Assembly (NCBI GenBank): GCA_020725805.1
Contig: DYEF01000114.1
Span: 1 to 18,769 of the forward strand
From: Bdellovibrio sp.
GTDB lineage: Bacteria; Myxococcota; SpSt-1050
Length of the DNA: 18,769 nucleotides
Reading direction: 5' to 3'
Of the stretch, positions 10,090-16,254 are shown one piece after another; the stretch's first letter is position 1; each line of letters starts with the position of its first letter. A model generated the notes under the pieces. The model searched no databases and was not told the DNA's origin. It saw only the letters and a list, made by a program, of their open reading frames with translations. The translations under genes and the position numbers were made by a program.

Positions 10090-11157
10090 TCACTTCTTTA
10101 CTGCATTGGCAAACATCCATTCGACACAGAATGGTCTTACAAATACCGGGACAAAGTTTATCTTCTTAAATGACCTTCTCAAAATGTCTTTGAGCATATT
10201 GATTGTATCAGTGTCATAAACGTCACAGCACTGAATAGAAACCAGCCCGTCTTTGTTCAGATTTCTGGATATCTTTGCAAAAATGTCTCTCAGAAATTTT
10301 TCGCGGTCTTTAACTGTCAGCCACTCGGGGTGGAGAGTAAGGTCATAAATGATTGCATCAAAACCCTCGTGGTGTTCAAGAAAATTATTTGCATCATCAA
10401 TAATTACCTTAACCTTCTTGTTTTCAAACGCGTCGCCGCAAATCGAAGGTAGATGTTCCCTGCACGCTGCAACCACCATTTCGTCGATATCAATCAGATA
10501 TATATCCTTTGCCCCTCTTTTAATAAGTTCCTTAGCTACTCCTCCGTCACCGCCACCAAGAATAGCTACCTTATTTAAGAGTTTCTTCTCTGCTATAGGG
10601 CTTACCAGAGCATCATTATATTCGGCATCACCGATTTCTGCAATCTGGACATCATCATCCAGAAAGAGCATTTTGCCAAAACTGTCATTAAGAATTATAT
10701 CTATCTTCTGATATTTGGAATGTCCGGAAAAAATACGGTCTTTTATGTGATATCTTGTCTCTGTACCGATAGAGCCATAGGAAATCATCCAGTTGGTGTC
10801 ATTTATTTCCAGCTCGTCTCCTCTCTTAATCCTGATAGTCCTTGTGCTTGCAGGTTTAAGAATACTTCTGAAATATTCGAGCAGGGCATTTGTAGGTTCG
10901 GGTGTCTTCGAACAGGTATAGATATCGATTGATGCATGTTTTGCCTCGGGGAAGGTATGAACAGCCACATGTGATTCACTGATAATAGCAACAACCGTAA
11001 GCCCGATAGGTGTAAATTTGTGATTGACCACCTTAATAAGACCGAGCCTGCATTTATTTATGCCTACACGAACCATTTCGGTAATTGTCTTTTCGTCATT
11101 CAAATCAAACTTGCAGTTCAAAAACTCACACACAATCTGATTGCCATATGGTCTCAT
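10090..11157 (-). CDS. speD/speE: AdoMet decarboxylase-aminopropyltransferase fusion, spermine-synthase-like
   Basis: Bifunctional polyamine enzyme: the N-terminal part makes decarboxylated AdoMet and the C-terminal part transfers its aminopropyl group to a polyamine. In the chosen 355-residue form, the bacterial AdoMet decarboxylase motif SESH gives the pyruvoyl-forming Ser62, with His67 and Cys82 at the same spacing as Ser63/His68/Cys83 of the Thermotoga enzyme, so self-processing is expected. The transferase domain has GGGDGG (201-206) and the acidic IDIDE, but the usual spermidine-synthase DSTDP loop reads DLTLHP (from Asp272) and CVEWMF (Glu346) is near the end, as in animal spermine synthase. 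I start at 11157 because AGGAGAG lies 8 nt upstream; an upstream ATG (11175) overlaps the previous stop as ATGA but has a poor site. Confidence 0.92.
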   Translation of the reverse strand: MRPYGNQIVCEFLNCKFDLNDEKTITEMVRVGINKCRLGLIKVVNHKFTPIGLTVVAIISESHVAVHTFPEAKHASIDIYTCSKTPEPTNALLEYFRSILKPASTRTIRIKRGDELEINDTNWMISYGSIGTETRYHIKDRIFSGHSKYQKIDIILNDSFGKMLFLDDDVQIAEIGDAEYNDALVSPIAEKKLLNKVAILGGGDGGVAKELIKRGAKDIYLIDIDEMVVAACREHLPSICGDAFENKKVKVIIDDANNFLEHHEGFDAIIYDLTLHPEWLTVKDREKFLRDIFAKISRNLNKDGLVSIQCCDVYDTDTINMLKDILRRSFKKINFVPVFVRPFCVEWMFANAVKK

Positions 11158-11171
11158 ATACTCTTCTCTCC

Positions 11172-12260
11172 TCATCTCTTTTTAAGGGGATAAAGCCAGA
11201 GGTCAACAGGTACCTTGTACCTATAGGGAACCTTTAGAGGGAACTCAATCTTTCTGCCAGTTGCAGCACTCAGATAGGCCGCTATCATAATCTCAAGGAC
11301 CACCTTCCCGTCTTCTGCCGACTCGATTGGCTTTCTGCCATATAGGATACAATCGACAAAATGCTGCATCTCCTGAGGATAACCGTTCTGATAATTCCAG
11401 TCGTATTCGGGGAATGTCCAGCCCATACTTTCTCTCGGATTTGGTGTAAATCCTTTCTCTGAAAAACATTTTATTCCGCCGCCCCTTAAGAGGTCGGAAT
11501 AAATAACGCCCTCCGTGCCATAACATTCCATTACACTGTCCATTCCGCCTTTGAGTGCCCAGCTTGCCTCGAGATTGGCAAGAACCCCGTTGTCGAATTC
11601 TATAAGAACTATTACATTATCGTCCAGTTTTGTAATCTTCTTATGCAGGACAAGGTCAACCTGAGCATAGACACTCTTTACTTTGGGTTTATTCAGAAAC
11701 CATCTCGCAAATTCAATGGCGTGACACCCCATATCCATCATTATCCCGCCGCCTGCTGTCTCCCTCTTAAAAAACCACGGAGAATAAGGCCCTGCGTGTT
11801 TCTCCCACTCCTTTATCATATATGGCTTACCTATACCGCCTGCATCCACAATCTCCTTCGCCCTTACAAACTTCGGGATAAAACAGAGCTCCTCGGCATA
11901 AAAAGCAAATCTTTTATTTTTTCGGGAAGTCTCGATAATCTCATCGGCGTCTTCGAGCGTAAGGCATAAAGGTTTCTCGATTATTACATGCTTACCGTTT
12001 TTTAGACAGGTCACTGCAAAATCCTTGTGCAGATAATTGGGAACACCCAGTGTAATGATATCCACTTCATCAGACTCAGCCATCTGTTTGAGTGTCTCAA
12101 ACCGGTATTTCAGCCTGTTCTTCTTTGCAAATGCATCTCTGCGTTTCTTATCAACATCTGCAATGGCAACCACCTCGGCTCCGTTTACCTTCGAAAAGGC
12201 ATCAAAATGTACCTGACCGATAAATCCCGAACCGGTTATTCCTACCCTTAATTTTTCCAT
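11172..12260 (-). CDS. Gfo/Idh/MocA family NAD(P)-dependent oxidoreductase
   Basis: A 362-residue sugar or inositol-type dehydrogenase. The N-terminal Rossmann fold shows GSGFIGQVH (10-18), and the family motif EKP occurs at 95-97 with the catalytic lysine. The C-terminal substrate domain has GGGIMMDMGCHAIEFARW, the usual D-x-G-x-H segment that contributes catalytic residues. The substrate cannot be read from the sequence; members act on glucose-6-phosphate derivatives, UDP-sugars, inositols or anhydrosugars. GGAGG lies four bases before the ATG. It precedes the polyamine fusion by 14 bp (or overlaps it by 4 with the alternative start), so the two are co-transcribed, although a biochemical link between them is not obvious. 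No signal peptide is seen, so it is cytoplasmic. Confidence 0.92.
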   Translation of the reverse strand: MEKLRVGITGSGFIGQVHFDAFSKVNGAEVVAIADVDKKRRDAFAKKNRLKYRFETLKQMAESDEVDIITLGVPNYLHKDFAVTCLKNGKHVIIEKPLCLTLEDADEIIETSRKNKRFAFYAEELCFIPKFVRAKEIVDAGGIGKPYMIKEWEKHAGPYSPWFFKRETAGGGIMMDMGCHAIEFARWFLNKPKVKSVYAQVDLVLHKKITKLDDNVIVLIEFDNGVLANLEASWALKGGMDSVMECYGTEGVIYSDLLRGGGIKCFSEKGFTPNPRESMGWTFPEYDWNYQNGYPQEMQHFVDCILYGRKPIESAEDGKVVLEIMIAAYLSAATGRKIEFPLKVPYRYKVPVDLWLYPLKKR

Positions 12261-12326: not shown

Positions 12327-13661
12327 TTACCCTGCATCAGGATGCATCGAACTCTTTTTTGTAATACTGTATCTTATTCTGATTTCATTTGTTTTGTACT
12401 TTTTCCCGTCATAGGTTTCGAATTCCATATACAGAGTAATCTCTCCTTCGGACTTTGAAGGGAGTTCTGAATAAAACTGCGGGAGCTGAAGATTCCTGAA
12501 ACCCATATAAAACTCATCCTCAATATTCTTGAGTCTTCCTATATCATAGACCTCATTCGGAAACGGTTTTTCATTCTCAACAGGGGCTGTGCTGTATACA
12601 ATCAGGTCCTCGTAGACATCCAGTTTTGCACTGAGTCTGATGACCTTTACCGATGATTCCGGCAATGCATGGATATAGGATATATATCCGTACATCCAGT
12701 CCCAGTTACCATATCCCATATCTTCGTAATATGTAAAATTGACCTGTGAAGGTGTGACCGCTGTAAGTACCGGATTGGTTCTGATCTTATCCCTCAATGC
12801 AGAATACACAGTCATTTCATAACTCTTTCCGGGCTCAAGTCCGTATCCGAAAGATTCAGCAAGCCCGGGAACCACAAACGAAATTGCCCCGTTTTCGCCT
12901 TTATAATATCCGAAAAGCGAAGGGAAAAAATAATTTTTCTGACTCTGAAAATCATATTCATAATATTCCCCCGAATAGGCGAATTCAAGTTCTGCCTTTT
13001 TATCCTTCGTTACAGATTGTTCTCCGAGAAGGGTTGCAAAGTTCTTTCTCTCTCCTTCAACCATCTTTCCCCTCTCGAAATAGTAAGCCTTCAGAGTACC
13101 GGTATTGGCTATTTCATATTTAGAAGCCTTAATATCGGTTATCTCAAAGACATTAAACCCGATTCTGGCGATTGGATTTATTTCGACATTAACAGAAGTG
13201 TCTTCCTCTATCGTTAGGTCACTGACCGAACCCCTGAACGTTACATTCCCATCCTGTCCGATAGTCTCTACCACTACTGACCTGTCGGTACCCACAGGAA
13301 CGCTCACCGGGATAATTACTTTTGCAAACATACGGTCACCATAATTACAGTTTGGCGGAAAATATGTATCATATTCAAAGAAACCCTCGCTATCGGGTTT
13401 ATAATACCCACCGTCGCTCAGGCAGACCCATTCAGGTACAGAAGGAAAATCTATGCTCTTCTTTACGGGCGCCATATTATTGCCATATACAGAGACAACA
13501 AGTTTATTTGCATATTTCTGAATGAAACTGTTAAGCCCTCCCTCTCCCTGATGCTGGAATGCTAAAATGAGCTTCAGATTCTCCTTCTCCTGATTACAGG
13601 CGAAATAGATTCCAAAAATCAGAACCGATAAAAGAATAAAAGCAAAATAAATTCTTTTCAT
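12327..13661 (-). CDS. Putative exported lipoprotein of unknown function
   Basis: A 444-residue protein I do not recognise. The N-terminus (Lys-Arg, a hydrophobic stretch and Cys22 in IYFAC) resembles a lipoprotein signal peptide, but the -3 to -1 residues Tyr-Phe-Ala are not canonical, so lipidation is likely rather than certain. The mature part is rich in beta-type segments and aromatic residues with few cysteines, like secreted all-beta domains; residues about 100-165 resemble an Ig-like or carboxypeptidase-regulatory type fold in character only. It follows the FecR gene with the stop codon inside its GAGGTGA ribosome-binding site, eight bases before the ATG, so the two are translated together. 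The context suggests a cell-surface or periplasmic partner of the TPR-barrel and FecR proteins. Confidence 0.75.
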   Translation of the reverse strand: MKRIYFAFILLSVLIFGIYFACNQEKENLKLILAFQHQGEGGLNSFIQKYANKLVVSVYGNNMAPVKKSIDFPSVPEWVCLSDGGYYKPDSEGFFEYDTYFPPNCNYGDRMFAKVIIPVSVPVGTDRSVVVETIGQDGNVTFRGSVSDLTIEEDTSVNVEINPIARIGFNVFEITDIKASKYEIANTGTLKAYYFERGKMVEGERKNFATLLGEQSVTKDKKAELEFAYSGEYYEYDFQSQKNYFFPSLFGYYKGENGAISFVVPGLAESFGYGLEPGKSYEMTVYSALRDKIRTNPVLTAVTPSQVNFTYYEDMGYGNWDWMYGYISYIHALPESSVKVIRLSAKLDVYEDLIVYSTAPVENEKPFPNEVYDIGRLKNIEDEFYMGFRNLQLPQFYSELPSKSEGEITLYMEFETYDGKKYKTNEIRIRYSITKKSSMHPDAG

Positions 13662-13669
13662 TGTTCACC

Positions 13670-14572
13670 TCAGTAGTTGCTGGTATCTATAAAAATATTG
13701 ACATCGACCTTCTTGGCATTTACCTCTCCTGTAAAGTCCCTCGGCGTCACGACACCCTGAACATCCTGCTCTCTGAGAGGTTCTGTCAGGCTCTGTGAAT
13801 ATGCACTCCTTCTGGCAATATCCTCTTTCTCTGCTTCCCTGATGCCCAAGATGAGTTTTTCTTCAAAATTGCCAAATAATGTTTTTGTATCCGGCATCAT
13901 ACCCGAACCCTTTTCGAGCGTTTTATTGAGTTCGTTTTTAATCATGGCCATAATCGAGGTCTTCTGGTAGATATCCTGCAAAACATCAGGAGGAATAGGC
14001 TGGGGAGGAGTCGGAGCACTGCCTTCCTTTATTTCCGAGAAAGTTCCTTCAGAGAGCATAATCTCCGGCAGGTCCATCTTGTCTCTGCTGAAAACACCCA
14101 CAAAACCATTTATAAGAAATACTCTTGTCGTTCCGTCCTCTGCCACATCAAGTGCCAGATGAGTACCCCTGACTCCTGCTATTGCAGTTTTGGACTTAAA
14201 CTCAAATTTGCTTTTGCTGCTCACCTGCTTCTTTACAACAGCCCTGACTTTCCCTACAAATGTAAGAACAGATGCCTCCCTCTTATCCTGACTCTTGACC
14301 AACGATTCAATAAGAATCTTTGTCTTGGGAGCTATGCTTAGTATCGTTTGGTCAGAGAGTTTTACTACGGCCTTTGAGTTCTCTCCGGTAGAGAGTGTGG
14401 CGTTCAGTGCAAGCATTGTCCCTATCTTGGCGTCTTCCGGACTTTTGGCCGGATATTCAACCTTGACTGTCCCTTCCACCCATGTAATCTCCCCGACCGG
14501 ATTCTCCTCGGCATAAAGAGTTGAACTGATAATCAGAAAAAGCGGAAGCAGAATTACAAATTTGTTATACAT
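13670..14572 (-). CDS. Exported FecR-domain protein
   Basis: A 300-residue protein with a clear signal peptide (cleavage predicted after LYA, residue 21), then a FecR domain at about 26-185. The family hallmarks are the early EGxV strand (WVEGTVKV), L-x-x-G-D/N-like GENSKAVVKLSDQT, and the conserved TAIAGVRGTHLAL. The C-terminal 110 residues are charged and probably helical. It lacks the membrane anchor and anti-sigma N-terminus of the iron regulator FecR, so iron regulation should not be assumed; in many diderm bacteria such exported FecR proteins accompany TPR proteins. A strong AAGGAG site precedes the ATG, and the gene starts 14 bp after the TPR-barrel gene. The role is probably structural or ligand-binding in the periplasm. 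Confidence 0.88.
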   Translation of the reverse strand: MYNKFVILLPLFLIISSTLYAEENPVGEITWVEGTVKVEYPAKSPEDAKIGTMLALNATLSTGENSKAVVKLSDQTILSIAPKTKILIESLVKSQDKREASVLTFVGKVRAVVKKQVSSKSKFEFKSKTAIAGVRGTHLALDVAEDGTTRVFLINGFVGVFSRDKMDLPEIMLSEGTFSEIKEGSAPTPPQPIPPDVLQDIYQKTSIMAMIKNELNKTLEKGSGMMPDTKTLFGNFEEKLILGIREAEKEDIARRSAYSQSLTEPLREQDVQGVVTPRDFTGEVNAKKVDVNIFIDTSNY

Positions 14573-14586
14573 AATGATTCTCCTTC

Positions 14587-16254
14587 TCAGAATTTAAGTT
14601 CCCAGAAAAGCATTCCAAGATGCCTTTTATAGTCATAGATTTTGGTGATATTGGACTGATTAAGAATAAAACTGTATTTCAGACCAATCCTTCCTACTTT
14701 ACCCAGAATAAATTCAGGTCCGGCATTAAGAGAGAGTCTTTTATCGGACCTCTCTTCTACTACGCCATCCTCCATTACATATTCAGAATCAGAAAAGTCC
14801 CTCATGAAATAATCGGCCAGAAATCTCAGGTCGATTACAGAAAGCGCAACAATGGAAAGTCCCAGACCGAATCTCAGCCCTGAATATCTCCACTGACTGC
14901 CGTCTGCATTACTCTTATCGTATTCGAATCTGAACATCAGTGTATCATCTCCCATAAAATACAGCATACTCTCAAGTCCGGCACTATGCCCGGTGCCGCT
15001 CATCGAATTCAGAGACGAATCCTCAACACTCTGGTGGTAAAAATCCATTCTCAGTCTGTAGTAAGGCTTCAGAGTCAGAATATTTGCAAGTGAAAAAGAA
15101 AGATTCGGTGCTACCATAACAGACGTAAGATAAAAATTCGGGCCACTATCTGCACCTTCCTGATGAACGAATGAACCAAACTGGTCTGTAAAGAGATTCA
15201 GGACACCCGTCTCGAGCCCCGGAGAAAGACGATTTTTATCAAATATGAAATCATAGCTGTATCTCGCCCCTGTATAAACAAACATTATATCATAATAGTT
15301 TGCATCGAATTCGCTTCTCTTTATCATTGCATTCACAGGGAGAAAATGGAAATTACTGAAATATGTGAGTGTTGCGTTTGCTTTATGGCTGCCGTTCTTA
15401 AAATTAACTCCGCCGGACAGTTCAAGGTCGGTTCTGGCTCCCCATCTCATAGAAACGCTTCCGAGGTTTGTAAGATATTTGAGATTCTCATCCTCATTTT
15501 CGGCCATTTCAGGGACATTCGTATCTGCGACATATGTATTTCTGATCTTGAAGAAAGGACTAAACATACTTTTTGACTTCAGCTTCTCCTTATCCCCTGC
15601 AATATTATTTAGGATTCGTGCAGCCTCTCTTCCCTCCTCCGAATCCTTGTCGGCAGCAGCAGATTCAAGGTATTTCAGCGACTCATTAAGATTTTTTTCT
15701 TCCTGCGAAATAACGGCCAGATAATAAGCTGCTCTTGATTTATATGCTGCGGAAGATGAATACAGATCTGCAAACAATGGCTTTGCCTCCTTAAAATTCT
15801 GCATAGCCATATTCAGTGTTGCTATCAGGTATTTTATACCATCCTTATCCGCCACCGTATCCTTTACAGAATTCAGATATTCCTTTGCCTCCTTATATCT
15901 CTTGTCCTGAATATAACACTGGGCAATATCGGCATAGACATTATCCCTGTCCTTTTTTTCGAGACCTGAATCAATCTTCTTAAAAATATTGAGTGCCTCG
16001 GTACAGTCCTTTGAATATACAAATGACTTCCCGAGCATAATCAATGCCTCCTTATCCCCCGGATTTTTCTCCGTATATTTTCTGAGGACAGGTATCACTT
16101 CCGAATATTTTTTCTGGGAATAGAGGTCCAGTGCCTTCAGCAGTTCTTCCTCCGTCTGTAAATCTCCCGACTGGATACTTCCCGAAGGAATTACCTGAGC
16201 CGAAAGGCCTGAAACAACCAGCAAAATGGTAATAACAAGCGAACTGATCTTCAT
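14587..16254 (-). CDS. TPR protein with C-terminal outer-membrane beta-barrel
   Basis: A 555-residue exported protein. A signal peptide (residues 1-19, cleavage after LSA) is followed by tetratricopeptide-type helical repeats at about 33-215 (for example A-L-x-x-L-G-K-S-F-V-Y and Y-L-A-V-I-S patterns). From about 230 to the end are alternating hydrophobic strands beginning with VADTNV, rich in aromatic residues and ending in ELKF with C-terminal Phe, the signal for outer-membrane insertion. The order and size (about 200 residues of TPR, 320 of barrel) resemble Slam proteins, which move lipoproteins to the cell surface, but also other TPR-porin families; without a profile search the family is open. 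GGAGAGA precedes the ATG. It lies between the TerB-like and FecR genes. Confidence 0.85.
   Translation of the reverse strand: MKISSLVITILLVVSGLSAQVIPSGSIQSGDLQTEEELLKALDLYSQKKYSEVIPVLRKYTEKNPGDKEALIMLGKSFVYSKDCTEALNIFKKIDSGLEKKDRDNVYADIAQCYIQDKRYKEAKEYLNSVKDTVADKDGIKYLIATLNMAMQNFKEAKPLFADLYSSSAAYKSRAAYYLAVISQEEKNLNESLKYLESAAADKDSEEGREAARILNNIAGDKEKLKSKSMFSPFFKIRNTYVADTNVPEMAENEDENLKYLTNLGSVSMRWGARTDLELSGGVNFKNGSHKANATLTYFSNFHFLPVNAMIKRSEFDANYYDIMFVYTGARYSYDFIFDKNRLSPGLETGVLNLFTDQFGSFVHQEGADSGPNFYLTSVMVAPNLSFSLANILTLKPYYRLRMDFYHQSVEDSSLNSMSGTGHSAGLESMLYFMGDDTLMFRFEYDKSNADGSQWRYSGLRFGLGLSIVALSVIDLRFLADYFMRDFSDSEYVMEDGVVEERSDKRLSLNAGPEFILGKVGRIGLKYSFILNQSNITKIYDYKRHLGMLFWELKF

Follow-up and report, generated by a model that had tools for sequence, protein, structure and literature searches.

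The window (the whole stretch of 18,769 nucleotides that was analysed) carries on its minus strand a gene for a fusion of AdoMet decarboxylase (AdoMetDC) with an aminopropyltransferase. The features of the locus are collected in Table 1. The open reading frame (10090-11175) has 361 codons when counted from its first ATG at 11175, and residue numbers of this 361-aa protein (P0001) are counted from that codon; numbers counted from the likely start are those of P0001 minus 6. As judged from the sequence, the in-frame ATG at 11157 is likely to be the better start, because AGGAGAG is placed 9 nt upstream of it, all the Desulfobacterota relatives start at a Met that is aligned with it in the family alignment, and the TGA that ends the upstream gene overlaps with the first ATG. 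An earlier note on this DNA had set the gene at 10090-11157, and the ribosome-binding site and the aligned Met of the relatives back this choice of start. The sister species, Deltaproteobacteria isolate SKW273 (G001/L036), has a fusion that is 90% identical and lies in the same gene order. We therefore regard the window gene as a genuine coding gene.

Table 1. Features of the fusion gene and its upstream neighbour in the window.
Feature	Position	Strand	Basis or remark
AdoMetDC-aminopropyltransferase fusion gene	10090..11157	-	355 aa from likely start; start by ribosome-binding site and family alignment
Class-1b AdoMetDC (SpeD) domain, about residues 7-125 of P0001	10801..11157	-	PF02675, TIGR03330, 1vr7
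Processing and catalytic residues Ser68 (pyruvoyl), His73 and Cys88 of P0001 (Ser62/His67/Cys82 from likely start)	10912..10974	-	T. maritima alignment, family alignment
Aminopropyltransferase domain (tetramerisation strands and Rossmann domain), residues 131-361 of P0001	10093..10785	-	PF17284, PF01564, 3c6k
GGGDGG (207-212); Asp210 = human spermine synthase Asp201	10540..10557	-	alignments
Cys246-Gly-Asp	10432..10440	-	column counts
DLTLHP (278-283) in place of D(S/T)DP; Asp278 = catalytic Asp276 of human spermine synthase	10327..10344	-	alignments; PMC3585406
Gfo/Idh/MocA-type oxidoreductase (GFO_IDH_MocA), directly upstream	11172..12260	-	order conserved in sister species (L248)

Three further genes on the same strand stand beside the fusion at 12327-16254, and their order is also kept in the sister species. 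One product has no match in Pfam, another has a FecR domain, and the third is a TPR protein that probably includes an outer-membrane part. In the flanking regions of the fusions that we looked at, neither a pyruvoyl-dependent arginine decarboxylase (PvlArgDC) nor an agmatinase turned up, and a polyamine cluster beside the fusion was rejected on this basis.

The N-terminal half of the protein matched the Pfam family AdoMet_dc (PF02675) with an E value of 2e-24 over residues 14-119, and its score against the NCBIfam model TIGR03330 (SAM_DCase_Bsu) was 95.6 bits, compared to a cut-off of 75.65. The AdoMetDC of Thermotoga maritima (1vr7) also matched this half (E = 5e-16). The residues Ser62, His67 and Cys82 are aligned with the residues of the ISESH, H and TC segments of the T. 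maritima enzyme, in which the corresponding roles belong to S63, H68 and C83 (PMC10407285), and the three residues are invariant in the alignment of the fusion family. The earlier note had stated that they are kept, and this is borne out by the T. maritima alignment. The residues and domain matches thus support the view that the decarboxylase half is intact.

The C-terminal half matched the Pfam families Spermine_synt_N (PF17284; 7e-10) and Spermine_synth (PF01564; 6e-27), and a phmmer comparison with human spermine synthase (SMS; 3c6k) gave an E value of 3e-21. The description of the protein in the earlier note as a fusion of the two enzymes is therefore confirmed by Pfam and NCBIfam. The Asp of the GGGDGG motif corresponds to Asp201 of human SMS, which is known as an active-site residue (PMC3585406). 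The DLT-x-x-P motif, the I-C-G-D segment and the Asn that the earlier note had compared with human SMS are all present, and each of them is aligned with the human enzyme. A Leu after the catalytic Asp was also found in 7 of the 39 ordinary enzymes, and the DLT motif is thus not diagnostic alone.

The window protein belongs to a small family of fusions of about 358 aa that is scattered over at least three bacterial groups. The members are 357-369 aa in length and show 45-50% full-length identity to the window protein. When 195 genomes of its own phylum were searched with the transferase domain, this family was found only in its own genus (two genomes, two species). Two outstanding matches were obtained from 395 sampled genomes of the phylum of a Desulfobacterota-type genome, and in the class of one of these matches full fusions of 357-358 aa were present in 14 of 155 genomes; of the Desulfobacterota sequences whose start had been trimmed, most have a length of exactly 358 aa. 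High-scoring fusions were found in eight genomes of the phylum that includes Stahlbacteria and Hydrothermota (one of them cut by a contig end), and at least seven are full-length and 48-50% identical to the window protein. No family member was seen among 13 genomes of the phylum of a Cloacimonadota locus, and the matches listed from a scan of a contig collection were mostly ordinary spermidine synthases (SpeE). The scattered distribution suggests that the family has been spread by horizontal transfer. A viral origin was also considered and rejected: of two scans of viral contigs, one yielded no relative and the other nothing beyond SpeE-like matches with identities up to 34%, and phage records carry speD and speE only as separate genes. 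In the Stahlbacteria/Hydrothermota phylum, a relative of the transferase half (L257; G991 C51:2108-2791) is broken by stop codons and is apparently a copy in decay.

A stand-alone transferase of the animal SMS type (L156/L199; C2:130791-131519), with the segments LCGR, DLTMDP and SYLERWTF, is encoded in one genome (G432), which also has an ordinary SpeE (L245; C4:174120-174794). The stand-alone protein is a candidate for a dedicated bacterial spermine synthase lacking the AdoMetDC half. Other fusions of AdoMetDC with a transferase, of 426, 488 and 440 aa (L009, L016 and L121), were found in the phylum of the window genome. They have the same domain order as the window protein, as do the fusions of Ca. 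Pelagibacter (PMC11107197), but in the trees L009, L016 and L121 fall among ordinary SpeE. The fusion therefore arose more than once, and for this reason the fusion architecture alone is no evidence for a link to animal SMS.

Several traits separate the fusion family and human SMS from the ordinary enzymes. Cys246 was present in all 15 fusions, in the stand-alone L199 and in human SMS, compared to 2 of the 39 other enzymes, and Asp175 in 14 of the 15 fusions, L199 and human SMS, compared to 1 of the 39. His192 and His187 are missing from the fusions, L199 and human SMS, but are present in 38 and 34 of the 39 others, respectively. The fusions and human SMS have DLT without the usual DP or EP after it. 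The family ends directly after the last strand, and the tail that follows the conserved Trp353 is only 7-10 aa long (20 in one member), whereas it is 35-73 aa in the full-length ordinary enzymes. No family member has the YHE motif or the C-terminal segment that ordinary spermidine synthases carry. The window protein itself has 8 residues after Trp353 and possesses YND instead of YHE, and its score against the NCBIfam speE models was 116.9, far below the cut-off of 249.55. Although an ordinary SpeE together with a separate SpeD performs the same reactions with the same fold in each half, the ordinary SpeE is unfused and differs in YHE, D(S/T)DP and the C-terminal segment. On account of these traits and of the position in the tree described below, the reading of the window protein as an ordinary SpeE spermidine synthase was rejected.

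One point of likeness to human SMS did not hold. The earlier note had equated the Glu of CVEWMF with human Glu353, but when the alignment was anchored on the invariant Trp, the column of Glu353 was found to hold Val351 of P0001, and Glu352 is the next residue; that is, the comparison was one residue out of register. An equivalent of Glu353 is present in the fusions of the Stahlbacteria phylum (L249-L255; SFCEYWVF) and in the SYLERWTF segment of L156/L199.

The phylogeny of the C-terminal domain, which the earlier note had named as a check, placed the window protein outside ordinary SpeE and together with human SMS. The main tree had 56 rows, among them spermidine and thermospermine synthases of solved structure, SpeE from archaea and bacteria, and the three other bacterial fusions. 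In this tree, a branch supported with 100/98 separates the window protein, the family fusions, the stand-alone L199 and human SMS from ordinary SpeE, the thermospermine synthases and the three unrelated fusions. The same split was obtained with 99/98 in another set and with 98 in a quick tree. In the AU test, the placement of human SMS with eukaryotic spermidine synthases was rejected (p = 0.018) with the larger set of fusions; with a smaller set lacking the fusions of the Stahlbacteria phylum, the value was p = 0.16, which is not significant. Human SMS, the one animal sequence in the trees, has a very long end branch (2.3-2.7) and attaches on the longest internal branch. It is the closest non-bacterial neighbour of the window protein in the tree, with 32-34% identity in the transferase domain.

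Sequence scores alone set human SMS only slightly apart from the other transferases. When a profile of nine family members was made without human SMS, human SMS was the top PDB match with 131.8 bits, and the next match had 130.3 bits. Human SMS was the third PDB match when the window protein alone was used as the query, the top match (1e-28, extending into the linker) when one Desulfobacterota fusion was used, and near the bottom of the PDB list when an ordinary SpeE was used. An AlphaFold2 model of the fusion had a mean pLDDT of 89, and Foldseek with this model placed 3c6k/3c6m at ranks 1-7; about 365 columns were aligned in each of the first six of these matches. Human SMS was the sole full-length match, and the other solved structures listed cover the transferase half only. 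The overall rmsd to human SMS was about 9 Å, probably because the two domains are placed differently relative to each other in the single-chain model. In VIA-align 2, the scores were tied among the transferases, but 3c6k_B spans model residues 11-361, with 325 residues aligned.

Taken together, the kinship with animal spermine synthase is well supported, and among the transferases found in this analysis the transferase domain of this family is the closest to it. Human SMS (3c6k, 3c6m) and the window protein are alike in the two domains, the catalytic Asp pair, DLT-x-x-P, Cys-Gly-Asp and the lack of a C-terminal extension. They differ in that human SMS has Glu at motif 3 and Glu353, in contrast to Asp229 and Val351 of the window protein. 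In addition, the N-terminal domain of human SMS has lost AdoMetDC activity, whereas the window protein keeps Ser62, His67 and Cys82, and the window protein is therefore a relative, not a member, of animal spermine synthase. The earlier note had likened it to an active ancestor of the animal enzyme. The kinship is real, as seen from the tree, the AU test and Foldseek, but the word ancestor overstates it; the protein is an extant cousin.

The general link to animal SMS is not new. In December 2025, Li et al. (J Biol Chem; PMC12803844) showed that animal spermine synthase derived from a bacterial AdoMetDC-spermine synthase fusion, and reported that its closest bacterial homologues are mostly fusions of class-1b AdoMetDC and a transferase with 30-32% identity to human SMS. 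The corresponding identity found here is 30-33%. Two fusions assayed by them, the deltaproteobacterial MBW2649524 (358 aa) and the Krumholzibacterial MCK4773364 (376 aa), show AdoMetDC activity, and in E. coli they produce spermine together with some spermidine; the Krumholzibacterial fusion is leaky, making about 60-fold more spermine than thermospermine (PMC12803844). Judged by its description and length (358 aa), MBW2649524 likely belongs to the Desulfobacterota fusions found here. The window protein resembles these enzymes in architecture and length class, but differs from them in its lineage, a genus of two species, and in its length of 355 aa.

In the window genome, the fusion is the only AdoMetDC and the only recognizable soluble aminopropyltransferase, and no other PF01564 protein with GGGDGG was seen. 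Three other proteins with PF01564 were rejected as further polyamine enzymes: L034 is a membrane-fused protein of 957 aa with GFGSGT instead of GGGDGG, and L033 and L035 lie in open reading frames of 1017 and 739 aa. Genes for PvlArgDC and then agmatinase are adjacent elsewhere in the genome (L237 1459-2991; G000 C41). Ornithine decarboxylase was rejected as a source of putrescine, since LysA is the genome's sole PF02784 protein. The route from arginine through agmatine, putrescine and spermidine to spermine is thus complete on paper, because PvlArgDC, agmatinase and the fusion are all encoded.

We therefore propose, with a probability of roughly 0.7, that the window protein is a bifunctional polyamine enzyme of an animal-SMS-like fusion family, which would make spermidine and then spermine with putrescine supplied from arginine. 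That is, the N-terminal domain would cleave itself at Ser62 to form the pyruvoyl group and would decarboxylate S-adenosylmethionine, and the C-terminal domain would move the aminopropyl group first to putrescine, giving spermidine, and then to spermidine, giving spermine, as in the assayed relatives. The putrescine would come from arginine by the action of PvlArgDC and agmatinase. Spermine is a plausible product because it is formed in E. coli by two bacterial fusions that, by the published description, are the closest homologues of the animal enzyme (PMC12803844).

The residue at motif 3 speaks partly against spermine. In a pattern of bacterial spermine synthases given in 2024, all the enzymes that act mainly as spermine synthases have Glu in motif 3, although its authors state that Bacillota were over-represented in the set behind it (PMC11107197). 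At motif 2 the pattern has Asp and, two residues on, Gly, and both are present in the GGGDGG of the window protein; at motif 3, the window protein and all the family fusions have Asp229, and human SMS has Glu. This departure agrees with an alternative that we regard as unlikely, in which the fusion is in practice a spermidine synthase, acting directly or through N1-aminopropylagmatine, and makes little or no tetraamine. If the organism makes spermidine, the protein, as the sole recognizable soluble transferase, has to use either putrescine or agmatine as the aminopropyl acceptor. Moreover, agmatine is available through PvlArgDC, and it served as an acceptor for 17 of the 18 bacterial spermidine synthases that were tested (PMC11107197). 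However, the window protein falls together with human SMS and with fusions of the type for which spermine formation has been demonstrated, and the whole family lacks the YHE motif and the ordinary C-terminal segment. Asp229 also occurs in the clade of thermospermine synthase-like enzymes (7xif, 1uir, 6bq2), and the leakiness of the Krumholzibacterial fusion points in the same direction, so that thermospermine or another tetraamine (norspermine or aminopropylated agmatine derivatives) might be the main product. We consider this improbable, since most thermospermine synthases have GGGEG as the dcAdoMet motif (PMC11107197), whereas the window protein has GGGDGG, and the 100/98 branch lies between it and these enzymes.

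Two other explanations concern the likeness to human SMS and the N-terminal domain. The likeness could be due to long-branch attraction or convergence, and the family would then be merely a divergent lineage of SpeE. The long branches on which human SMS is placed and the value of p = 0.16 with the smaller set would agree with this explanation. Against it, the AU value falls to 0.018 once the added fusions break the branch, the C-terminal truncation, the invariant Cys246 and the loss of His192 are common to both groups, the structure comparison recovers the same two-domain architecture, and an independent analysis arrived at the same link (PMC12803844); we thus give this explanation little credence. 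The other explanation takes the N-terminal domain for a neofunctionalised SpeD, which would decarboxylate arginine or ornithine instead of AdoMet. Such SpeD homologues are widespread (PMC10407285), and the conserved Ser, His and Cys are by themselves not discriminating. But the fusion is the sole SpeD homologue of the genome, its partner domain requires decarboxylated AdoMet, a separate PvlArgDC is encoded, and the TIGR03330 score exceeds the cut-off, and we find this explanation hardly credible.

Human SMS carries a dead AdoMetDC-like domain, and loss of human SMS causes Snyder-Robinson syndrome. Living bacterial relatives with an intact domain show a possible ancestral form of this enzyme. 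The window protein adds a further lineage to the published link, together with a list of common residues and a broader picture of how the family is distributed. If the proposed spermine activity is true, the Asp at motif 3 of the family is an exception to the published sequence rule (PMC11107197). A more specific idea, which we hold to be doubtful, is that the fusions of the window genus and of the Stahlbacteria phylum, and not those of the Desulfobacterota, are nearest to the donor of animal SMS, and that in this organism three enzymes lead from arginine to spermine, with both decarboxylases being pyruvoyl-dependent. The AU test gave p = 0.205 for human SMS placed with the subclade of these two groups, a value at which this placement is not rejected, and the trees lend it no support either.

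A different arrangement of related genes was seen in a Hydrothermota genome (L037 4316-7700), in which an unfused speD adjoins a transferase with GGGEGA. They are followed by an apparent gene for a pyruvoyl arginine decarboxylase, by one for an ordinary SpeE and by an agmatinase-like gene, and together these genes form a compact polyamine cluster.
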